Part shown: in pieces, positions 2,320-55,750 of the stretch
Position numbering within the stretch: position 1 is the stretch's first letter
Layout: each line of letters begins with the position of its first letter
Origin: an uncultured SAR86 cluster bacterium
GTDB lineage: Bacteria; Pseudomonadota; Gammaproteobacteria; Magnimaribacterales; D2472
Direction of reading: 5' to 3'
NCBI GenBank assembly: GCA_902551185.1
Contig: CACDCN010000006.1
Coordinates: 1-55,750, forward strand
DNA length: 55,750 bases
Translations under genes and position numbers: made by a program
The notes under the pieces: model-generated
Told to the model about the DNA's origin: nothing
Databases searched by the model: none
Seen by the model: the letters and a program-made list of their open reading frames with translations, nothing else

Positions 2320-4138
2320 ACTTTATTCGTCCAAGAAGCTTTTTTAAGTGACTTGATCTACTAGGATGTCTTAATTTTCTTAAAGCTTTTGCTTCAATCT
2401 GTCTTATTCTTTCTCTAGTAACATCAAACTGCTTACCCACTTCTTCAAGCGTATGATCAGTATTCATACCTATGCCAAATCTCATTCTTAAAACCTTTGC
2501 TTCTCTTGCGGTAAGTGAAGCAAGAACATCATCGGTTGCAAAATGTAAGCTTTCTTCAGTTGCATTCTCTAAAGGAGACTCAATTACAGTATCTTCAATG
2601 AAATCACCTAAGCTTGAATCCTCATCATCCCCAATAGGCGTTTCAGTTGAAATGGGTTCTTTTGCAATTTTAAGCACTTTTCTAACCTTGTCTTCAGGCA
2701 TATCAAGCTCTTGACTTAACTCTTCTGGAGTTGGTTCTCTTCCCATATCTTGCATCATCTGACGAGAGACTCTATTTAATTTATTTATAGTTTCAATCAT
2801 ATGGACTGGGATTCTAATTGTTCTTGCTTGGTCTGCAATAGATCTTGTAATAGCTTGTCTTATCCACCATGTTGCATAAGTAGAGAATTTATAACCCCTT
2901 CTATACTCAAATTTATCAACCGCCTTCATTAGGCCAATATTACCTTCTTGAATTAAATCTAAAAATTGTAGCCCTCTATTGGTGTATTTTTTTGCAATGG
3001 AAATAACTAATCTAAGGTTAGCCTCAACCATATCCTTTTTAGCCCGTCGCATTTTGGTTTCTCCCATAGACATATTTCTATTAATTTCTTTAATTTCCTT
3101 AATAGATAAGCCAATTTTTTCTTCAAGAGCTAGAATGTCTTTTTGAGCAATAACAACATCTTGTTTAACCGCTTCTAGTAAATCCTTTTTATATTTTTTT
3201 TCTTTCATTAGGCTATCAACCCATCTAACTTTCGTTAAATTATCTTGATATAAAGCTAAAAAATCTTTTCTAGGTATGCGAGCTTTTTTAACTAGCTCAT
3301 TTTGAATAAATCTTTCTTTCTCTCTCAAGCTATTTAATCCGTGTCTTGCAATAGCTGCAATATCATCGAACATTCTTGGGCTAAATTTTAAAAACTGGAA
3401 AATTTCCCCAAGTTTTTTGTATTCTGCATTGGCTTCTTTTGAGTGCCTTCCTTTTTTCTCAATAACTTTAGTAGTTTTATTAAATTGTCTTTTGAGGCTA
3501 GTCATTCGTCTTTTAACTTCTTTCATATCAGGACCAGAAGAAGTTTCTTCATCTGATGATTCAGCAGCCTCTGCTTCTTCTTTAGCTCTTTGGCTTCCAG
3601 GTCCTGCCGAAGGAACTTCCTCCATTTCTTCTAAGAAGCCTGTCAAAAAATCATTAATCTTCTTTTCACCATCTTTTACAAGCTGAAAATAATGTAAAAC
3701 ATATTCAACCGTTTTTGGATAATAAACACTGGCATCTAAAAGATCTCTCATTCCCTCTTCTATTCTCTTAGCTATCTCTATCTCGCCTTCTCTTGTTAAA
3801 AGATCAACGGTTCCCATTTCTCTCATATACATTCGAACCGGATCAGTAGTTCTTCCAGTTTCATTCTCTACAGCAGCAAGAGCTTCTGCAGCTTGTTCTA
3901 GAGCAATATCATCAGAATTTTCAGATTCAGCAAGCATCAAAGTATCAGCATCAGGTGCAGTTTCATGAACTTGCAAACCCAAGTCGTTAATCATTCCAAT
4001 GATTTCATCTACCTGATCTGGATCAGATATATCATCTGGCAAATGATCATTGACATCGGCATAAGTTAAATAGCCTTGTTCTCTGCCTTTTTCTATGAGC
4101 TCTGCAATTCTTGAGCCCTTTTGGTTTAATTTATCCAC
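2279..4138 (-). CDS. rpoD: RNA polymerase sigma factor RpoD (sigma70)
   Basis: Regions 1.1, 2 ([59 protein letters not shown]) and 4.2 ([33 protein letters not shown]). Confidence 0.98.
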
Positions 4139-4197
4139 AGATTAGTTCTACCTCGAGTATATCCCCTATATGTATGGATTGATTACTAAAAATCAAT

Positions 4198-5973
4198 CTA
4201 ATTTGAGCTTAAATCTTTTATTAAAGCTGCTTCTTCCTGCGACATTTTATCTTTTTTTAGAATAATTTGTTGTAATTCTCTTTTTTCAGAAGAAGTAAGT
4301 TCTTGCATATTATACTTTTCTTTTAAAATTTCTTCTCTTTCAGCTTCAGATTGAGCAATTAACTCCAAGCAATCTTTTATCATAGACAAAGCATCTTCTT
4401 TAGATAATTTTATTTCTGATACCAATGCTTCACCAAAAATATTTTTAACATTTTCATTTGCTATCTTTTCTAAAATAATTGAAGCTGAAGATTCAGGGTT
4501 GTCTATATAAAAACCTTTAATATCTTTTAGAAAAGAAAATTTAGAATCTGTTTTAACTAAATCAAACTCCTGCATAGTTGCTAATTTAGGGTATTGGATT
4601 AGTGCCATAAAAATACCTAAAACAGATTTCCTTAAAACAGAACTGGAATTTTTTTTAACTTCTTCTTTTTTTGAGATATTTGATTTTACTGAATTTGAAG
4701 TATTTTGAGTAAGCTTGGATAAATCTAGATCACAAATATTAGATATTTCTTTGATGTATGCTTGTTTTAAAGTATCGTTCGAAATTTTATTAATTAGTGG
4801 TAATGCAAAACGAGCAACCATTGATCTTCCCTCTACAGAAGATAAATCATCCTGTTCTTTTATAGTTTCTATAAAAAATTCAGAAAATGATTTTGATTCT
4901 TTTGCTAGTTTTATGAATGCATCTTTGCCATTTTTTCTAATATAACTGTCTGGATCTTCTTCTGGATCAAGAAATATAAAACTAATTCTAGTATCTTCGC
5001 GAAGAAGTGGTAAAGCATTCTCAACAGCTCTCCAAGATGCTTTATGGCCAGCCTCGTCACCATCAAAAACTATATAAATTGTATTTGTATAGCTTAAAAT
5101 CTTCCTCAGCTGTTCTTGAGTAAAGGCAGTCCCAGATGAGGCAACAGCATTTTTTACATCGTATTGAAATAAACCTATCACATCCATATATCCCTCAACG
5201 AGAAAAATAGAATCAGGCCTCTTATTAACTTGTCTAGTTTCAAAGAGGCCATAAAGCTCATACTTCTTTTTGTAAGTTTTGGTTTCTGGTGAATTAAGAT
5301 ATTTTGCTTGGTCATTTTTATCTTCAATTAGCCTGCCGCCAAATGCAATACATTCCCCTTTTATATTTCTTATCGGAAACATCAGCCTGTCCCTAAACCT
5401 ATCATAAAATTCTCCATCATCATTATTTCCAAACAAACCAGATTCTTTAATATCTGTTTCTTCAAATTCTTTTGTTAGTTTTTCATGTAATGTAGGTTTT
5501 TTGTTTGTTGAATACCCTAATTGAAAAAACTTGGCGATCTCTCCAGAAATACCTCTATTTTTTAAATATGCAACAGTATTAATACCATCTTTTGATTTAA
5601 GTTGTTCATAGAATATTTCTGCAGCACGATTATTTATTTTTGTAGCATTAGAGGTATCGATCGGCGCTTCTTGTTTAGGAACCTCCATTCCAACTTGAGA
5701 GGCCAGCATTTCAACTGCTTCAATAAAATCAAGCCCATCATATTTTCTTAAAAAATGTATGGCATTGCCAGATTCTTTACAACCAAAACAGTGATATGTT
5801 CCAGTCTCTTCATAGACTTTAAAAGATGCAGTCCTTTCTTCTCCCGAACCATGAAATGGACATTTTGCCCAATATCCACCACCCTTTCTTTCAAGAGTCA
5901 CTCTTCTTCCAATTACATCAACAATATTTACAGAAGCTAGTAAACGTTCAATAAATGATGATGATATCGACAT
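4198..5973 (-). CDS. dnaG: DNA primase DnaG
   Basis: N-terminal zinc finger CPFHGSGEERTASFKV...CFGC and TOPRIM region FLVEGYMDVIGLFQ. Confidence 0.97.
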   Translation of the reverse strand: MSISSSFIERLLASVNIVDVIGRRVTLERKGGGYWAKCPFHGSGEERTASFKVYEETGTYHCFGCKESGNAIHFLRKYDGLDFIEAVEMLASQVGMEVPKQEAPIDTSNATKINNRAAEIFYEQLKSKDGINTVAYLKNRGISGEIAKFFQLGYSTNKKPTLHEKLTKEFEETDIKESGLFGNNDDGEFYDRFRDRLMFPIRNIKGECIAFGGRLIEDKNDQAKYLNSPETKTYKKKYELYGLFETRQVNKRPDSIFLVEGYMDVIGLFQYDVKNAVASSGTAFTQEQLRKILSYTNTIYIVFDGDEAGHKASWRAVENALPLLREDTRISFIFLDPEEDPDSYIRKNGKDAFIKLAKESKSFSEFFIETIKEQDDLSSVEGRSMVARFALPLINKISNDTLKQAYIKEISNICDLDLSKLTQNTSNSVKSNISKKEEVKKNSSSVLRKSVLGIFMALIQYPKLATMQEFDLVKTDSKFSFLKDIKGFYIDNPESSASIILEKIANENVKNIFGEALVSEIKLSKEDALSMIKDCLELIAQSEAEREEILKEKYNMQELTSSEKRELQQIILKKDKMSQEEAALIKDLSSN

Positions 5974-5975
5974 AA

Positions 5976-6368
5976 TTATTTATTTATATTAAACCAATTA
6001 TCTATTAATATCTTTGCAGCATTGGCATCTACAGTTTCTACATTATTTTCTTTAAGAATATCTTTTGCTTCAAATGTTGTGAGTCTTTCATCAACATATT
6101 CAAACTTTGCGTCGTATAAACTTTCCAGTTTTTTATAAAAGGCATCTACTTTCATCATAATTTCACTATCTGTTCCATCCATATTTAAGGGTTTCCCAAC
6201 AAGAATAAGTTCAGGCTTCCATTCTTCTAACAATATACTAATATCATTCCAATTCACTTTATCATGATTATTAAAAATTACTTGGAGTGGAGAAGATGTA
6301 TAGGTTGAAGTCTGACCTACAGCAACACCTATCTTTTTTTCTCCAAAGTCAAAAGCAACTATTTGCAT
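5976..6368 (-). CDS. ruvX: Holliday junction resolvase RuvX/YqgF
   Basis: AFDFGEKKIGVAVG, VGKPLNMDGT, YVDERLTT motifs. Confidence 0.93.
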   Translation of the reverse strand: MQIVAFDFGEKKIGVAVGQTSTYTSSPLQVIFNNHDKVNWNDISILLEEWKPELILVGKPLNMDGTDSEIMMKVDAFYKKLESLYDAKFEYVDERLTTFEAKDILKENNVETVDANAAKILIDNWFNINK

Positions 6369-6995
6369 CTAATTAGAGGAAAAATTCCAATCTCTTACTA
6401 TCTCAAGAACACTGTATTCATTTGACATGCTTATATTAAATGGTGCGAAAGGTGATGATTCTTTGAGAATATTAATCGCCATATCATCAATCAACCTATT
6501 ACCTGAAGATATGAGTATCTCAGAATTAACTAAATTACCGTATACATCTATCGTTGCCATAATTTGCACCTTACCATTCAAGTAATTCCTATTATTCGAA
6601 ATGATCTTGTCTCCTGTCATTTCAATCTTCCTCTGCCAAAGATTTAAATAAACCGCCTCTTCATTATTTACTTCAGAGTTAGCTTGGAGCTTTTTAACTT
6701 TAAGAGGTTTATATGTATTTTTTGAAGCTTGGATATTGCCGCTTTTTTGTGAAGGTAGGTCTTTTATATAATCTTCTTCAGAGCTGAAAGCTGCATCTAC
6801 TAGGTAGTCTTGATTAGAATTTGCTAGCTTTACGTTAATAATTGGTGATTCATTAAAAATTGGAAGTTTGTAATAGGTTGTAATAGAAATTCCAAAAATT
6901 AATATGGAATGAATAGCAATAGAAATAATAAAAGACTTATTAAATGTTAAAGAGCGTTTACTAGCTTTTTGCTTTGAAGATAATAATGAATTCAT
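6369..6995 (-). CDS. TonB family protein (energy transducer C-terminal domain)
   Basis: N-terminal TM segment and TonB_C-like GKVQIMATIDVYGNLVNSEILISSGNRLIDDMAINILKESSPFAPF. Confidence 0.8.
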   Translation of the reverse strand: MNSLLSSKQKASKRSLTFNKSFIISIAIHSILIFGISITTYYKLPIFNESPIINVKLANSNQDYLVDAAFSSEEDYIKDLPSQKSGNIQASKNTYKPLKVKKLQANSEVNNEEAVYLNLWQRKIEMTGDKIISNNRNYLNGKVQIMATIDVYGNLVNSEILISSGNRLIDDMAINILKESSPFAPFNISMSNEYSVLEIVRDWNFSSN

Positions 6996-7918
6996 AGGCC
7001 TTTAAAATATTCTGCAATTGGATTCAATCCTGTTTGATCAAAAATCTCTCTTGCGCAAGTTGGGCTAGTTATATTAATTTCAGTTAAGTGTTTACCAATC
7101 ACATCTATCCCAGCAAAATTAATATGCTTTTCTATCAAGAATTCTCCAACCTTTTCACCTATCATTTTTTGATAATCTGAAATGTCTCTAGCCTCACCCC
7201 TTCCTCCAGCGGCAAGATTGCCTTTAAAACTATTACCTTGAGGTATCCTAGCTAATGTCTTTTGGAAGGGTTTTCCATGGATAATAAGTATTCTAAAATC
7301 GCCATCGTATATATCTTCTATGAATTCTTGGCAAATAATATGGGTTCGTTGGGAATTTGTCATTTTCATTAATAGGTCTTTATTTTCCTCATTTAATTCA
7401 TCAATTTTATATATTGAAGCCCCGCCCATTCCATCTATAGGTTTAATTATTATTGTCTTATGGAGTTCAAAAAAATTTTCTATTTTATTTATATCAGAAG
7501 TTACTATAGTCTTCGGAATAAATTCTTTGAAATGTAACGCAAAAATTTTTTCATTAAATTCTTTAATTGCTGTTGGTTTGTTGAATACAGCAGCTCCTTG
7601 TTTTTCTGCCAATCCAAGCAAATGGAGGGCATTGATATAATTTTCATTTACAGGGGGGTCTTTACGCATAAAAGAAAATTTAAAATCAGATAATCTTATT
7701 TCTTGTTTTGAAATTCCTTCAATCTGTGTAGAGCCGGCAGAAAGTATTTCTCTAGAGGTGCTATAAACAATACCTTCATCAACATATAAATCGTTAATCT
7801 CACACTGAAATGTATTAAAACCCAGGCTTATTGCCTCCTCCATCATCAATATTGAAGTATCTTTCTTTGTATTTAGATCTTTATAAGCATCGGTTATAAA
7901 TAAAACTTTATCTGTCAT
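6992..7918 (-). CDS. gshB: Glutathione synthetase
   Basis: FMRKDPPVNENYINALHLL, IIKPIDGMGGASIYKI, ATP-grasp C-terminus NITSPTCAREI. Confidence 0.96.
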   Translation of the reverse strand: MTDKVLFITDAYKDLNTKKDTSILMMEEAISLGFNTFQCEINDLYVDEGIVYSTSREILSAGSTQIEGISKQEIRLSDFKFSFMRKDPPVNENYINALHLLGLAEKQGAAVFNKPTAIKEFNEKIFALHFKEFIPKTIVTSDINKIENFFELHKTIIIKPIDGMGGASIYKIDELNEENKDLLMKMTNSQRTHIICQEFIEDIYDGDFRILIIHGKPFQKTLARIPQGNSFKGNLAAGGRGEARDISDYQKMIGEKVGEFLIEKHINFAGIDVIGKHLTEINITSPTCAREIFDQTGLNPIAEYFKGL

Positions 7919-7920
7919 AA

Positions 7921-8655
7921 CTAAATTTTACCAAAATGATTCTTAATTAAAGTAGAAATATATATTGCTGCTGTTTCTGATCTTAAAATATTCCTACCTA
8001 AATATCTTTTCTTTATTTTAGATTTATTCATTAATTCTAATTCGGTCTCTGAAAAACCTGATTCTGGACCTGTTATAAAAGCAATCGAAGAACTTTTATC
8101 TAATTCTTCTTGATTAAAATATTCCTCAGCATCAGTATCAAAAAAATATACTCTATGGCCTGTGCTTATCAAAGCTAATGCATTTTCAAGATTTTTTGAT
8201 TCAAATATTTCTGGTAGAAAATTATTTCCACATTGCTTGCATACGCTTATGATAATCTCAAAAGTTTTCGCAATAATTAATCTTAAATCTTTTTTTGCAA
8301 CACTTTGATCAACAAGATCTGGTTTATAAATAATAAATCTATTAACGCCTATTTCAGTCAGTTTTTGTATCATAAAATTAAAATTATTTTTTTTTATAAA
8401 AGGGATAATTGCTGTAAGCACCCTTTTTGGGCCAACATCATTATTTAATTTACTTATCTTTTCTAGCTGACAATTTTTTTTCGTTATTTGAAGAATCTTA
8501 CATTTAGCCGACCTGCCATTTCCATCAAAAACCTCCACTAGATCATCTTCTTTTAGCCTTAATGCTTTTATTAAATGCTTAGATTGAGGCTCATCTATAT
8601 AAAATATGTTATTAGGCTCAGATAAGGATTTACAATATACTCTATGTATTCTCAC
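7921..8655 (-). CDS. rsmE: 16S rRNA (uracil1498-N3)-methyltransferase
   Basis: FITGPESGFSETELELM and LGRNILRSETAAIYI motifs. Confidence 0.93.
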   Translation of the reverse strand: MRIHRVYCKSLSEPNNIFYIDEPQSKHLIKALRLKEDDLVEVFDGNGRSAKCKILQITKKNCQLEKISKLNNDVGPKRVLTAIIPFIKKNNFNFMIQKLTEIGVNRFIIYKPDLVDQSVAKKDLRLIIAKTFEIIISVCKQCGNNFLPEIFESKNLENALALISTGHRVYFFDTDAEEYFNQEELDKSSSIAFITGPESGFSETELELMNKSKIKKRYLGRNILRSETAAIYISTLIKNHFGKI

Positions 8656-8685
8656 ACTATTATTATAGCTATAGCTAAGGAATAA

Positions 8686-9249
8686 ATGTCACAGATTGAA
8701 CTTATATTTATTAGGCATGGGGAAGCGTCTGATGCTTGGGACAATCACCCAGATCCTGGCTTAAGTAAAACTGGAATTTTTCAATCTAATAATCTATTGA
8801 ATAATAAAGATCTTGGATCACTTGAAAATTATTCTTTCATATCAAGTCCAAAGTTGCGAGCAATTGAGACTGCAAAACCATTAGTAAAAAAATTTAACAA
8901 GGAATTAAAAATAGACAATACTTTTATTGAAATACCATCAGAAAATATAGATCTTAACGATAGACAAGATTGGATTAAGAAAATCATAAAGACCAATAAA
9001 AAAGATCTCCCAGATTATGTAAAATTATGGAGCGAAAATATTTATAAAAAAACAATATCTTTTAAAAAGAACTCAATTATTTTTACTCATTTTATGGTCA
9101 TTAATGCACTTATGAGTGAGATAACTAGTTCTGATACTCTCTTATATTTTCATCCTGGCTATACATCGATAATTAAAATTAAAATAGCTGAAAATAAAAT
9201 TCAGTCTTTTTTAATACAAGAAAGTAAAAAAACACACATAAATATTTAA
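8686..9249 (+). CDS. Histidine phosphatase (phosphoglycerate mutase-like) family protein
   Basis: IFIRHGEASDAWDNHPDPGLSKTG RHG motif; ISSPKLRAIETA; FTHFMVINA. Confidence 0.85.
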   Translation: MSQIELIFIRHGEASDAWDNHPDPGLSKTGIFQSNNLLNNKDLGSLENYSFISSPKLRAIETAKPLVKKFNKELKIDNTFIEIPSENIDLNDRQDWIKKIIKTNKKDLPDYVKLWSENIYKKTISFKKNSIIFTHFMVINALMSEITSSDTLLYFHPGYTSIIKIKIAENKIQSFLIQESKKTHINI

Positions 9250-9311
9250 AAATCTATTGAGCAATTTTTAAACAACTGTAAACTTAATCTTCTTTAACCA
9301 TAATATTTATT

Positions 9312-9578
9312 TTGAAAAGTAAAAAAAAATCATTCGATAGTTATTCAAAAAATCCTCTAAAAGATGAGGTTAGAAAGGCTATGAGAAGATATTTCAATCA
9401 ACTTGATAAAAAAAATATACCTATTGATGTCTATGAACTAGTGCTTAAAGAAGTCGAGCCTCCTCTTTTGATATCAGTTATGAAATTTGCTAACAATAAT
9501 CAGTCTAAAGCAGCTAGGATTCTTGGAATTAATAGAACGACCTTAAGAACAAAATTAAAAAAATATAACATTAACTAA
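9312..9578 (+). CDS. fis: DNA-binding protein Fis (TTG start)
   Basis: C-terminal HTH NNQSKAARILGINRTTLRTKLKKYNIN; upstream of purH. Confidence 0.9.
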   Translation: MKSKKKSFDSYSKNPLKDEVRKAMRRYFNQLDKKNIPIDVYELVLKEVEPPLLISVMKFANNNQSKAARILGINRTTLRTKLKKYNIN

Positions 9579-11116
9579 TGAGTTTGGTAAAACCAAAAAT
9601 AGCTTTAATAAGTCTTTCTGATAAAACTAATATAGAAAAGATAGTAAATTTTTTAATCGAAAAAAATGTAAAGATAATATCAACCGGTGGAACCTATAAA
9701 TCTATTAAAGAAATTACAGATAATGTTATTGAAGTGTCTGAATTTACCGGTTTTGAAGAAATGATGGATGGAAGAGTTAAGACACTTCATCCAAAAATTC
9801 ATGCCGGCATCCTTTCAAGGAGAGACTCAGATATGGAAGAGCTGAAAGATAGTGGTTATGAAGCCATTGATCTTGTTATTGTAAATTTATATCCATTCAA
9901 GGAAACAATTCAACAAGACTGTTCTTTTGAAGAAGCTATAGAAAAAATTGATATTGGTGGCCCCACAATGATCAGAGCGGCTGCAAAGAATTTTAAAGAT
10001 GTTGTGGTGATATCGGATCCGGAAGACTATGACAAAATAATGGATGAATGGAATGCTAATGATGGCATTTCTTATGATCTTCGTAAGAATTTGTCACAAA
10101 AAGTTTTTGCTTTAATGTCTGATTACAATAAATCAATATCTGACTATCTAAAAGGCGATGATAAAAAGATACATGATTATATTATTAAAAAAAGTACTTC
10201 ACTAAGATATGGCGAAAATCCTCATCAATCTGCAACGTTATTCACTTTTGATAATTTAGAAAATCGAAATATTGCAAATGCTGAAATTATTCAAGGTAAG
10301 GAACTTTCTTATAATAATATCGTGGATGCGGATGCGGCATGGGAGTGTGTAAGAGAATTTATTAACCCTGCATGTGTAATAGTCAAACATGCGAATCCCT
10401 GTGGTGTTGCCGAAGCTAATTCAATTGACGATGCTTATGATTTAGCTTTTAAAACAGATCCAACATCTGCTTTTGGGGGAATAATTGCTCTTAACAAAAG
10501 AGTTAGTTTGGCTACAGCAAAAGAAATAAACTCAAGGCAGTTTGTCGAAGTTATTATTGCGCCAGAATTTGAAGAAGAAGCAATAAATGAATTTTCGAAT
10601 AAGAAAAATATTAGAATATTGAAAGTAGATATTAAACAAGATAATCCGTATCCAGGAACCATAAAAAAAGTATCTGGTGGAATTTTAGTTCAAGATGATG
10701 ATGAAAAAAGTGTAGGAATTGATGATCTGAAATGTGTCACTAAAAGACAACCGTCAAAAGATGAAATGCAGGATTTAATGTTTGCTTGGAAAGTTGCAAA
10801 GTTTGTTAAAAGTAATGCTATTGTTTATGCGAGGAAGAAAAAAACAATCGGAATTGGTGCAGGCCAAATGAGTCGTGTTGTTAGCGCAGAAATAGCTAAT
10901 CTAAAAGCAAAAGAAGAAGGTCTAGAAGTAGAAGGTGCTGTTATGGCATCGGATGCTTTTTTTCCATTTAGAGATGGCATTGATAAAGCAGCAACAAGTG
11001 GAATTGCAGCAATAATCCAACCTGGTGGATCTATAAAAGATGATGAAGTAATTGCTGCAGCTGATGAGCATAATATAGCAATGGTATTTACTGGAACAAG
11101 GCATTTTAGGCACTAA
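9578..11116 (+). CDS. purH: Bifunctional AICAR formyltransferase/IMP cyclohydrolase
   Basis: ISTGGTYK, DGRVKTLHPKIHAGIL, KHANPCGVA, SDAFFPFRDGID motifs. Confidence 0.98.
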   Translation: MSLVKPKIALISLSDKTNIEKIVNFLIEKNVKIISTGGTYKSIKEITDNVIEVSEFTGFEEMMDGRVKTLHPKIHAGILSRRDSDMEELKDSGYEAIDLVIVNLYPFKETIQQDCSFEEAIEKIDIGGPTMIRAAAKNFKDVVVISDPEDYDKIMDEWNANDGISYDLRKNLSQKVFALMSDYNKSISDYLKGDDKKIHDYIIKKSTSLRYGENPHQSATLFTFDNLENRNIANAEIIQGKELSYNNIVDADAAWECVREFINPACVIVKHANPCGVAEANSIDDAYDLAFKTDPTSAFGGIIALNKRVSLATAKEINSRQFVEVIIAPEFEEEAINEFSNKKNIRILKVDIKQDNPYPGTIKKVSGGILVQDDDEKSVGIDDLKCVTKRQPSKDEMQDLMFAWKVAKFVKSNAIVYARKKKTIGIGAGQMSRVVSAEIANLKAKEEGLEVEGAVMASDAFFPFRDGIDKAATSGIAAIIQPGGSIKDDEVIAAADEHNIAMVFTGTRHFRH

Positions 11117-12384
11117 TGAATATACTAGTAATTGGCTCTGGTGGAAGAGAACATGCTTTAGCATGGAAATGTGCTCAAGATAATTTTGTTAATCATGTTT
11201 ATGTGTGTCCTGGAAATGCTGGAACTTTTCTTGAAGACAAAGTCAGTAATATAAATCTTGATGCTAATGACTTTAAATCCATTGGAGATTTTTCTTTAGA
11301 AAAAGATATTGAACTAGTAATTATTGGTCCTGAACAACCTCTGGTTGAGGGGCTAACTGATTATTTGCATAGCAAGAATATTAAAGCATTTGGCCCCTCA
11401 AAAAATGCTGCTCAACTAGAAGGTTCGAAAACTTTCTCAAAAGATTTTTTTGTAAAATATGACATTCCAACTGCAGGATATAAATCATTTATCGATTTTG
11501 AGAGCTCAGTAAATTATCTCGATGAAATCGATTACCCAACTGTTGTAAAGGCAGATGGTTTGGCTGCTGGCAAAGGAGTAATAATTTGTCAAAATAAAAA
11601 AGAGGCCATAAAAGCATTGAACAGTATTTTTAATGACAAAGCTTTTGGATCTGCAGGCAATAAAGTTGTTATTGAAGAATTTTTAGAAGGTGAGGAAGCG
11701 TCATTCATTGCAGTTGTAAGCAAGGATAAGATTATTCCTTTGGTAACTAGCCAAGATCACAAAGCTGTTGGTGACGGTGATGTTGGTTTAAACACTGGTG
11801 GTATGGGGGCATATTCGCCTGCACCAATAGTTAGTGATGAAATTCATCAAAAAATTCTTGAGCAAGTAATGCAACCGACAATGAAAGGCTTAATTGAAGA
11901 AGGCTCTCCTTATCTAGGCTTTCTTTATGCCGGCTTAATGATTAAAAATAATGAAATTAAAGTATTAGAATTTAATTGTAGATTTGGTGATCCTGAAACT
12001 CAGCCAATTTTACTTAGATTAAAATCAAGTTTAGTTAACTTATGTTTAGCAGCGATTAATAATACTCTTGATTCATATGATATCGAATGGACTCAAGCAC
12101 ATTCTTGCGGAGTAGTTATTGCCTCGAAAGGATACCCCAAGAATTATGAATCAAACAAAGAGATTCAGATTAATATTGATGATGAAAATGATACTAAATT
12201 ATTTCATGCGGGAACTAAGTATGAAAATAATAAAATTCTCACTAGCGGAGGAAGAGTATTTTGTGCAACAGCTTTAGGTGTTGATTTGAAAGAAGCTCAA
12301 CAAAACGCATATAATTTAGTAAATAAAGTTGATTTCGAAGGTGCTTTCTATAGGAAAGATATAGGATATAAAGGTATTAAATGA
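11116..12384 (+). CDS. purD: Phosphoribosylamine-glycine ligase
   Basis: NILVIGSGGREHALAWK, GPEQPLVEGL, LNTGGMGAYSPAP. Confidence 0.98.
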   Translation: MNILVIGSGGREHALAWKCAQDNFVNHVYVCPGNAGTFLEDKVSNINLDANDFKSIGDFSLEKDIELVIIGPEQPLVEGLTDYLHSKNIKAFGPSKNAAQLEGSKTFSKDFFVKYDIPTAGYKSFIDFESSVNYLDEIDYPTVVKADGLAAGKGVIICQNKKEAIKALNSIFNDKAFGSAGNKVVIEEFLEGEEASFIAVVSKDKIIPLVTSQDHKAVGDGDVGLNTGGMGAYSPAPIVSDEIHQKILEQVMQPTMKGLIEEGSPYLGFLYAGLMIKNNEIKVLEFNCRFGDPETQPILLRLKSSLVNLCLAAINNTLDSYDIEWTQAHSCGVVIASKGYPKNYESNKEIQINIDDENDTKLFHAGTKYENNKILTSGGRVFCATALGVDLKEAQQNAYNLVNKVDFEGAFYRKDIGYKGIK

Positions 12385-51437: not shown

Positions 51438-52577
51438 ATGAATAAACTAAAATTTATTGAAGATATTTCTTCATTAAAAGAATCTGAATTTGATGATTTA
51501 AATAGTAAAGATGATTCCCCTTTTACTAAATATGGATTTTTAAATTCTTTGGAAGAGTCTAGATGTGTTTCAACAGTTAATGGATGGAAGCCAAATCATC
51601 TAGCAATATTTAATAAAAAAAAATTGAGGGGCTTTATACCCTTGTATTTAAAAAATAATAGTCACGGTGAGTTTGTATTTGATCACCAATGGTCTTATGC
51701 ATTAAATAGGGCTGGAAGAAATTATTATCCAAAATTATTAACAGCTATTCCATTTACTCCCTGTAAGACTAAAAAAATATTCAAAAGCGAAAAATTGGAT
51801 TACGAAATCTTCATAAAGGAAATTAAAGATCTGATGATTAAAGACAATATAGAAACATGGCATATGCTTTTTCCAGATGATGAAGTTCATAAGACACTCA
51901 TCGATAATAATTTTATAAAGAGAAGTGGTTATAAATTTATTTGGAATAATAAAAAATATAATTGTTTTGAAGATTATTTAGAAATTTTTACTTCTAGGCA
52001 AAGAAAGAATATTAAAAATGAAAGAGAGAAAGTTAAAAAAGCAGGAATTACTTTTAAGGTGAAAGATAAAAGTAATTTGACTGATGATCATTGGGAAGAT
52101 TTTTATAACTTTTATAATAATACATATCTTGAAAGATTGCAGGAACCATATCTAAATTTAGATTTTTTTAAAGGGGTTCATGCAAAGCGAATGCAACTAA
52201 ACCCAATTATTATCTTTGCAGAGAAAAATAATAAGAAGATTGCAGCTTCACTATTTTATAACGGCAAATCAGTGCTTTATGGAAGACATTGGGGTGCTTC
52301 TGAAGATGTAGACAGTCTCCATTTTGAATGTTGTTATTATCAAGGGATCGATTATTGTATAAAAAATAAAATAGCCCACTTTGATCCAGGTGTTCAAGGA
52401 GAACATAAGATGAGAAGAGGTTTTGAGGCAACAGAAACTTCCTCTTATCATTACATAATGAAAGAAGATTTTAGAAATGCCATAAAAGATTTTTGTACCA
52501 GAGAAGGAAAAGAAATTAAAAATTATTTAAAGGCCTGTGAAAGATATACACCCTTCAAGAAAGAATATAAAATTTAA
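51438..52577 (+). CDS. GNAT family N-acetyltransferase, COG3146 type
   Basis: SRQRKNIKNEREKVKKAGI, ASLFYNGKSVLYGRHWG, HFECCYYQGIDYCI, FDPGVQGEHKMRRGFEAT. Confidence 0.88.
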   Translation: MNKLKFIEDISSLKESEFDDLNSKDDSPFTKYGFLNSLEESRCVSTVNGWKPNHLAIFNKKKLRGFIPLYLKNNSHGEFVFDHQWSYALNRAGRNYYPKLLTAIPFTPCKTKKIFKSEKLDYEIFIKEIKDLMIKDNIETWHMLFPDDEVHKTLIDNNFIKRSGYKFIWNNKKYNCFEDYLEIFTSRQRKNIKNEREKVKKAGITFKVKDKSNLTDDHWEDFYNFYNNTYLERLQEPYLNLDFFKGVHAKRMQLNPIIIFAEKNNKKIAASLFYNGKSVLYGRHWGASEDVDSLHFECCYYQGIDYCIKNKIAHFDPGVQGEHKMRRGFEATETSSYHYIMKEDFRNAIKDFCTREGKEIKNYLKACERYTPFKKEYKI

Positions 52578-52758
52578 TCATGCTTAAAACTTTACCTAAA
52601 ACATCTCACCAACTTAAACTTTTTGAGGGTAACTTTTTGCTTCTAAAAAAAATGTCTTCAAGAAAGAATTTAAAATTTAACCATGCTTAAAACTTTACCT
52701 AAAACATCTCACCAACTTACAGTTTGTGAGGGTAACTTTTTGCGACTAAAAAGAATGC
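52553..52758 (+). repeat. Tandem direct duplication, 103-bp unit, two copies
   Basis: Copy 1 from 52553 and copy 2 from 52656 align with about 9 mismatches by eye; shared core ATGCTTAAAACTTTACCTAAAACATCTCACCAACTTA. Confidence 0.93.
52580..52690 (+). pseudogene. Truncated duplicate of the 5' end of the downstream DUF1249 gene
   Basis: Reads MLKTLPKTSHQLKLFEGNFLLLKKMSSRKNLKFNHA*; the first ~24 residues parallel MLKTLPKTSHQLTVCEGNFLRLKRM of the intact gene. Confidence 0.8.
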
Positions 52759-53105
52759 TTCAAAAGTTTTCAAAAGAAACATACTTTTTTCAAACTATTA
52801 ATCCTGATGAATCATATAATGAAATATCATTCAAAATTATTCATAGAACAAAACATACTCTAATTGTTGAAGCTAAACAAAATAAAAATAATGATCAAAT
52901 AAATAGCTTTATTTTAAGAATACAGATTTGTCTTGACGCCAATTTAGCAGAAGTTATTTCTTATCAAGGTGAGAAAGCTATCCCTGCTTTTATTAAAATT
53001 TCTAAGAGTCAGTCCAAAGATGAAAAACTTCAACAAAATAGATTCTTAACAGAGTGGCTAGAAAGTATTTTTATATCGGGTATTAATTCAGAAATAAAAT
53101 TTTAA
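52683..53105 (+). CDS. DUF1249 (YqiB-like) protein
   Basis: Start MLKTLPKTSHQLTVCEGNFLRLKRM, length and position directly before yqiA. Confidence 0.82.
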   Translation: MLKTLPKTSHQLTVCEGNFLRLKRMLQKFSKETYFFQTINPDESYNEISFKIIHRTKHTLIVEAKQNKNNDQINSFILRIQICLDANLAEVISYQGEKAIPAFIKISKSQSKDEKLQQNRFLTEWLESIFISGINSEIKF

Positions 53106-53680
53106 TGGTCAAGACGATATTATACTTTCATGGTTTTGCCTCATCATCAGATTCTGAAAAAGCAGATATTTTAAAAAACTATATTTCATCTTTCGCTAAA
53201 AAAACAAGGCTGGTCGTTCCTAATCTAAATGATAATTTCAAAAAAGCTGTTAAAGAAATAAAAGAACTAATTAAATCTAATGGCGAACCGATTGCTTTTA
53301 TGGGTAGTTCTTTGGGAGGATATTACGCAGCATATTTTGCAAGTATATATAACTCAAAAGCTATTTTAATTAACCCCGCTATACCTCCATTAAAAGATTT
53401 TGATATTCATCTTGGAGAGAATGAAAACTACTCGACTGGAAATAAATTTAAACTCACAAAAGAAGATATGAAGTTTATTAGGTCGATTGCTTTTAAGAAA
53501 TATAATAATTCTTCCAATACACTTATTTTGCTTGAGTCTAAAGATGAGGTATTAAATTACATTGAAACATCATCATATTTCAAAAGTTCTTTTATAGATA
53601 TTGAGTTTGGCGGGAATCATTCATACACCTCTCTTATCAAAAAACTCGAAAAAATAAGAAATTTCATAGATATTCAATAA
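53105..53680 (+). CDS. yqiA: YqiA-like esterase (UPF0227)
   Basis: ILYFHGFASSSDSEKADIL; FMGSSLGGYYAAYFA; INPAIPP. Confidence 0.92.
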   Translation: MVKTILYFHGFASSSDSEKADILKNYISSFAKKTRLVVPNLNDNFKKAVKEIKELIKSNGEPIAFMGSSLGGYYAAYFASIYNSKAILINPAIPPLKDFDIHLGENENYSTGNKFKLTKEDMKFIRSIAFKKYNNSSNTLILLESKDEVLNYIETSSYFKSSFIDIEFGGNHSYTSLIKKLEKIRNFIDIQ

Positions 53681-53712
53681 ATTGAACTAAAATTGGGCAA
53701 AAAACTTTATTT

Positions 53713-53751
53713 TGCACAAAAATAATGCATAATATTATCAATGTTTGTGCA
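53713..53751. promoter_or_regulatory. Candidate operator upstream of glnA: inverted repeat TGCACAAA...TTTGTGCA, with a TGCAC-N8-TGCA element
   Basis: Perfect 8-bp inverted repeat (53713-53720 and 53744-53751); the first arm is also part of a 17-bp TGCACAAAAATAATGCA resembling NtrC-type sites. Confidence 0.4.
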
Positions 53752-53821
53752 TTTGCTTGAAAAACATTAAAGCATATTAGATGTAACAAAATTTAAAAAC
53801 TACTATCTTAAGGAGAAATTA

Positions 53822-54790
53822 ATGAAAACTTATGAATATATTTGGCTTGATGGATATCAGCCCGAACCATCAATGAGAAGCAAAGTTAAGGCAACAAAGG
53901 ATGAAACACCGCCTGATTGGTCTTTTGATGGATCTTCAACGGAACAAGCAGAAGGAGGCAGTTCAGACTGTTTGCTTTTACCAGTTCAAACTTATGAAAA
54001 TCCAAATGGGCATGACCTAGTTATGACACAGGTTCAAGCTGCAGACCATACCACTCATCCATCTAATTTTAGAGCTGCTGCTGCAGAAGTCGTTTCTGAT
54101 GAATGGTGGTTTGGATTTGAGCAAGAATACTTTTTTACAGATCCAGAAACGGGCGAACCATTGGGATGGGAAAATGGTGAACCAGGACCTCAAGGCCCAT
54201 ACTATTGTGCAGTTGGTGCTGGAAATGTTTCTGGACGAGAAATTTCTGATGCGCACCTTTTAGCTTGCTTAGATTTAGGAATAGAGTTAACTGGAACTAA
54301 TGCTGAGGTTGCTATTGGCCAATGGGAGTATCAATGTTTTGGCAAAGGAATTAAAGCAGCAGACGATCTTTGGGTCAGTCGATATTTACTATATAAAATT
54401 GCTGAAGAATTTGGAGTTGGTGTAAACATACATCCGAAACCAAAAACTGGAGATTGGAATGGCTCAGGAATGCATACTAATTTCTCTAATGAGGCTATGC
54501 GAACAGCTGGAAGTGAAGAGCTGTTTACATCAATGTGTGACAAGCTAGGTGAAGTTCATGAGGAAGGTATAGCTGCATATGGTTCTGACAATGATATGAG
54601 ATTAACAGGCCTTCATGAAACGCAAAGCATTGACACATTCTCATATGGAGTTAGTGATAGAGGTGCCAGTATACGTATACCAGTATATACAGTTGAACAT
54701 GATTGGAATGGTTATCTAGAAGATAGAAGACCTGCATCAAATGCAGATCCATATAAAATCCTATCTCACATAGTAGGTACTTTAAAGTAG
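53822..54790 (+). CDS. glnA: Glutamine synthetase, GSII-like (eukaryotic-type short form)
   Basis: EYIWLDGYQPEPSMRSK; PPDWSFDGSSTEQAEG; FGFEQEYFF; GVNIHPKPKTGDWNGSGMHTNFS; SDRGASIRIP. Confidence 0.93.
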   Translation: MKTYEYIWLDGYQPEPSMRSKVKATKDETPPDWSFDGSSTEQAEGGSSDCLLLPVQTYENPNGHDLVMTQVQAADHTTHPSNFRAAAAEVVSDEWWFGFEQEYFFTDPETGEPLGWENGEPGPQGPYYCAVGAGNVSGREISDAHLLACLDLGIELTGTNAEVAIGQWEYQCFGKGIKAADDLWVSRYLLYKIAEEFGVGVNIHPKPKTGDWNGSGMHTNFSNEAMRTAGSEELFTSMCDKLGEVHEEGIAAYGSDNDMRLTGLHETQSIDTFSYGVSDRGASIRIPVYTVEHDWNGYLEDRRPASNADPYKILSHIVGTLK

Positions 54791-54806
54791 TTTTTAAATG
54801 TATAAA

Positions 54807-54833
54807 TCTGCCCTATTAATATAATGGGGCAGA
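54807..54833 (+). terminator. Possible weak hairpin terminator/attenuator between glnA and ntrB
   Basis: TCTGCCC (54807-54813) pairs with GGGCAGA (54827-54833), followed by CTTTCT; only a short T-tract. Confidence 0.4.
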
Positions 54834-54842
54834 CTTTCTAAG

Positions 54843-55060
54843 ATGAAAGTAAATATAGAAAATATAAAATTTTTAAATCAATTAACCTCTGAAGTAATAA
54901 TATTAGATAAAGATTTATGTATTGTTTGGTTAAATGACTCGGCCTTGAACAAAGGATGGGTTTTAAATTCAAATAATAAAAATAATATAATTACGGATCA
55001 ATTCTCAGAAGAAACTAATGGAAAGCTTATAGGCTTGTTAAAAAATACTGTTGAAAAAGC
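54843..55060 (+). pseudogene. NtrB/GlnL-type sensor kinase, N-terminal PAS-region fragment, truncated by a rearrangement junction
   Basis: FLNQLTSEVIILDKDLCIVWLNDSALNKG is NtrB PAS-like; homology ends near 55040-55060, after which sequence matches ntrC on the other strand. Confidence 0.8.
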
Positions 55061-55321
55061 GGTCATTACAATCACTGGCAGATCTTCAAAGTTATTATTG
55101 ATATGCTTAAGTATGTCGTAACCTAACATTCCTGGCATTTGGACGTCAGTTATAACCAAGTCAGGTTTTGTATTTTCTAATTCTTTAATTAGTTCTTCGC
55201 CTGAAGAGAAGGTTCTAGTCTTAAATCCAGAGCTAGAAAGACTTTCTTCAAGAACTAACCTAATAGCCTCATCGTCATCAGCGATCCAGACTTTATGCAA
55301 TTTTAGCCTCCCTTTTTTCAT
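55050..55321 (-). pseudogene. NtrC-type response regulator, receiver-domain fragment, truncated at junction
   Basis: KVWIADDDEAIRLVLEESLSSSGFKTRTFSSGEELIKELENTKPDLVITDVQMPGMLGYDILKHINNNFEDLPVIVMTA; homology stops after VIVMTA. Confidence 0.85.
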
Positions 55322-55748
55322 CTCCCAAAGGAACATTAATTGAAAATATTGTACTTCCAGGCTTTGATTTGAATGTTATATTTCCCCCATGAACTCTTAT
55401 TATGTCTTGAGCAATAGTAAGGCCTAATCCAGATCCACTCTCTTTCATCGATACCATGGGAAAGAACAATTGATCATGAAGTTCATCTGGTATTCCTTTC
55501 CCATTATCGCAAATATCAACTGAGCATACAGTTTGTTGAACCACTCCATTTATCGGCTCCCCATATTTAATTCTAGATTTAATCACTATGGCAGGATCTT
55601 TAATATTTTCTATTGCTTGTTGACCATTTTTAACAATATTAAGGATTGCTTGTACAAATAGATTCTCATCTCCATATATCTCTGGAATGCTTGGGTCATA
55701 GTCCCTTATAAAATTTAACTTTTCATTTTTATCAACCTCAACCAGGGC
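55293..55748 (-). CDS. NtrB/GlnL-type nitrogen sensor histidine kinase, C-terminal part (continues beyond window)
   Basis: Open to window edge: ALVEVDKNEKLNFIRDYDPSIPEIYGDENLFVQAILNIVKNGQQAI...VDICDNGKGIPDELHDQLFFPMVSMKESGSGLGLTIAQDIIRVHGG. Confidence 0.9.
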   Translation of the reverse strand, partial: ALVEVDKNEKLNFIRDYDPSIPEIYGDENLFVQAILNIVKNGQQAIENIKDPAIVIKSRIKYGEPINGVVQQTVCSVDICDNGKGIPDELHDQLFFPMVSMKESGSGLGLTIAQDIIRVHGGNITFKSKPGSTIFSINVPLGDEKREAKIA

Positions 55749-55750
55749 AT

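Follow-up and report, generated by a model that had tools for sequence, protein, structure and literature searches.

The closest described counterpart of the junction considered here is the inverted chimera formed during multiple displacement amplification (MDA). Lasken and Stockwell (2007) described 475 chimeras produced by MDA of a single E. coli cell, of which 85% were inverted; 83% of the inversions link points less than 10 kb apart, and among these inverted joins 93.5% have at least 2 bp of complementarity (PMC1855051). In the WGA-X single-cell workflow with SPAdes, reads are normalised to low k-mer depth ahead of assembly, 100 bp are cut off each contig end and contigs longer than 2,000 bp are retained; the benchmark misassembly rate is 1.5 per 100 kb (PMC5519541, PMC9771814). 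The window, that is, the whole 55,750-bp stretch analysed here, is an entire contig (G000:C6) of a SAR86 assembly, and near its end lies a junction of the same kind. The second segment is inverted with respect to its genomic orientation, the joined points are less than 10 kb apart with the intervening sequence lost, and the complementarity at the junction (AAAAG, 5 nt) falls within the 2–21 nt of MDA chimeras. Single-cell amplification is, we infer, also common to both. The present junction differs in being known from an assembled contig rather than from raw reads.

The genes at the junction recall a second described system, the glnA-ntrB-ntrC (glnA-glnL-glnG) cluster. As in that cluster, SAR86 relatives have a glutamine synthetase gene followed by genes for NtrB (NR(II)) and NtrC (NR(I)). 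In contrast to it, the contig has only fragments of ntrB and ntrC, in chimeric order, and the synthetase ahead of ntrB is of the GlnII type (eukaryote-like GSII) and not a type-I GlnA; homologues occupy the same position across the genus. An earlier note on this DNA had called the gene glnA: a glutamine synthetase in the expected order is indeed there, but the top NCBIfam model is gln_syn_GlnII (E = 4e-107, 358 bits, below the cut-off of 500). The gene (53822–54790, + strand, 322 aa, Pfam Gln-synt_N/C) is intact, forms part of the left parent of the junction and has a dN/dS of 0.03 against AG-430-O03.

Where does the order change? The closest named relatives of the source genome (920 kb, 38 contigs, 77% complete) are SAR86 cluster bacteria, and the nearest of these, AG-430-O03, which has a SAG-style name and a SPAdes NODE contig, served as the reference for the locus (locus sequence L054). 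The normal order, glutamine synthetase and then the start of ntrB, holds to 55059, and the strand switch, which the earlier note had placed near 55040–55062, can be fixed at base level to 55055–55059. The left arm (window 52000–55059) is 97.1% identical to L054:1531–4590 on the + strand, and the right arm (window 55055–55750) is 93.4% identical to L054:5694–4999 on the opposite strand. The two alignments overlap at 55055–55059 in a 5-bp microhomology, AAAAG, common to both parents, ntrB (+) and ntrC (−); among random inverted joins in the window, at least 5 bp are shared in 0.9%. On AG-430-O03 the breakpoints are 1,104 bp apart, making this an inverted join with an intervening deletion. The inverted arm is also more divergent from AG-430-O03 than the left arm (dS about 0.3 vs about 0.13). 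A separate template for the inverted arm was considered on account of its lower identity and rejected, since 93.4% is within the genome-wide spread; 22% of 700-bp windows are at or below this identity, so the greater divergence needs no special cause. Also within the left arm, at the 3' end of a 379-aa ORF, 102 nt are duplicated in tandem (52553–52757, copies 92% identical), a duplication that AG-430-O03 shares (L054:2084–2294).

The pieces on either side of the switch can be assigned far beyond chance by their ORFs and domains. On the + strand, an N-terminal ntrB fragment of about 72 codons (54843–55059) lies within the 97% match to L054:1531–4590, collinear with relatives; the ORF containing it is 92 aa long, of which 72 codons are ntrB and the rest is noise. 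On the − strand, inverted relative to the relatives, an N-terminal ntrC fragment (55055–55336) is represented by a 112-aa ORF that encodes the receiver domain through VIVMTAF and then noise, and the Pfam Response_reg match covers profile positions 1–82 of 111. The C-terminal ntrB fragment (55293–55750, − strand), likewise inverted, is a 151-aa ORF with a complete HATPase_c domain and a match to positions 209–347 of 349 of the NCBIfam NR(II) model, and runs off the contig end. The ORFs, the domains and the reversed match to L054 agree with the earlier description of the − strand as the C-terminus of ntrB followed by the start of ntrC as far as the window end, and the overlap of the arms bears out that ntrC is cut just where the N-terminus of ntrB stops. 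The proposed PAS domain, on the other hand, is detected by Pfam neither in the ntrB fragment nor in its intact homologue. The broken fragments have dN/dS values of 0.05–0.17 and contain no internal stops or frameshifts, and thus show purifying selection without decay.

The arrangement in relatives is uniform. In AG-430-O03 the synthetase gene is immediately followed by ntrB (360 aa) and ntrC (470 aa), both intact and collinear, and their products score above the NCBIfam NR(II) and TIGR01818 (NR(I)) cut-offs, respectively. Of the 107 family genomes searched, 65 others had both halves among the matches listed, and in all 65 the halves are collinear, in the ancestral arrangement and less than 3 kb apart, which supplies the synteny comparison that the earlier note had called for. 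With up to three mismatches allowed, the junction pattern itself occurs in one of the 107 genomes, namely the source, and in none of the other 106. It is also the only inverted junction detected in the assembly against AG-430-O03, and the reverse comparison, of AG-430-O03 contigs with the source genome, gave none. Self-comparison revealed no fold-back repeats at other contig ends (contigs C32–C38 and 2.5 kb of C4, which read as N, were left out). No long inverted repeats were found flanking the breakpoints. A site-specific invertase or phase-variable switch was rejected because of this lack of flanking repeats, because the inverted form is found in no relative and because the breakpoints are inside coding domains.

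The window end, to which the earlier note had pointed, is the end of the contig, and the junction lies 691 bp from it, beside a stretch that is absent from the assembly. Two segments are lacking: L054:4591–4998 (408 bp, the middle of ntrB) and L054:5695–7343 (1,649 bp, ntrC and downstream sequence), after which another contig, C15, picks up at L054:7344. A fold-back would start to repeat itself only about 408 bp beyond the contig end and so cannot be seen in the sequence. The assembly contains no uninverted alternative contig of the locus. A matching second junction, such as the earlier note had proposed to look for, was not found in the assembly, which is 77% complete and in which the contig ends, at 55750, before that point. 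A sigma-54 AAA (activator) domain was not found anywhere in the assembly, and apart from the ntrB fragment HATPase_c is matched once, in a 642-aa frame on C1; a second ntrBC copy elsewhere was rejected on these grounds. The gene for the sigma factor partner of NtrC, rpoN, is present (G000:C2:40265–40714). Of 15 genomes of the genus searched, 14 have the RpoN DNA-binding domain, but it was not found in 5 of 10 order-level relatives, all more than 90% complete, which suggests that sigma-54 was lost in some lineages of the SAR86 order.

The assembly as a whole bears the apparent fingerprint of a single-cell workflow, which would fit phi29 MDA of one cell. Six adjoining contig pairs, when placed on AG-430-O03, are separated by gaps of 200, 200, 200, 201, 201 and 205 bp, and the shortest contig is 2,094 bp; both features are accounted for by 100-bp end trimming and a length filter of >2,000 bp. 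At 1.5 misassemblies per 100 kb, up to about 14 would be unsurprising in a genome of this size, and one inverted junction was found. Elsewhere, window 3578–9866 (about 6.3 kb) spans the gap between contigs C4 and C3 of AG-430-O03, where the relative's assembly breaks, and about 5.4 kb of C15 in the source assembly (L064, G000:C15; positions 6917–12281) is without a match in AG-430-O03 and probably represents a strain-specific insertion.

Could the junction be genuine? Inversions mediated by microhomology exist, and a recent inversion in the chromosome, about 1.1 kb long, that broke ntrB and the ntrC receiver and so disrupted both genes, would have one of its two junctions identical to the one observed, with the contig stopping before the second could appear. 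If true, such a very recent event would remove NtrBC control beside the glutamine synthetase gene in one SAR86 cell. However, the reciprocal junction is absent from the assembly, the junction occurs in one of 107 family genomes only, the breakpoints have no long flanking inverted repeats, and the sole such junction found in the genome adjoins a dropout, with the contig ending 691 bp away. The purifying selection on the undecayed fragments and the presence of rpoN also speak against it; all of these points would still fit a very recent event. A genuine inversion is therefore very improbable, and the earlier suggestion of one found no support. Least likely of all, and hardly credible, is a purely bioinformatic misjoin with no physical chimeric molecule behind it. 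The position near a contig end and the normalisation of reads to low k-mer depth ahead of assembly would favor a misjoin, but the shared sequence of 5 bp is far below an assembly k-mer, so the reads must physically contain the join.

It is almost certain, then, that the junction is an artefact of phi29-type whole-genome amplification (MDA/WGA-X) from a single SAR86 cell and not a biological feature, since all the relatives that can be compared are collinear and the join carries the standard marks of MDA chimeras. The alternative in the earlier note, an MDA or assembly chimera, is strongly supported in its amplification form by the order in relatives, the inverted-with-deletion geometry, the 5-bp microhomology, the contig-end position next to a dropout and the fingerprint of the single-cell pipeline. 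Presumably, branch migration displaced the 3' end of a strand growing in ntrB (..GAAAAAG), which then annealed again, via about five bases, to a displaced strand close by that ran in the opposite direction through the ntrC receiver region. Extension back towards ntrB would then have given the inverted join, with the 1,104 bp between the breakpoints deleted; synthesis on the other strand could equally have produced this molecule. The proper continuation through the remainder of ntrB and ntrC would have been poorly amplified and lost from the assembly, the assembler following the chimeric molecule until coverage ended.

The locus thus illustrates neatly how a chimera can persist in a single-cell-type assembly, and the contig ends of such assemblies may carry false gene truncations far beyond the usual 100-bp trim. 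The rewired nitrogen control once proposed is without support: the true locus of this cell probably has the ordinary glnII-ntrB-ntrC order, and annotation of the junction should not record nitrogen control as lost or rewired in SAR86.
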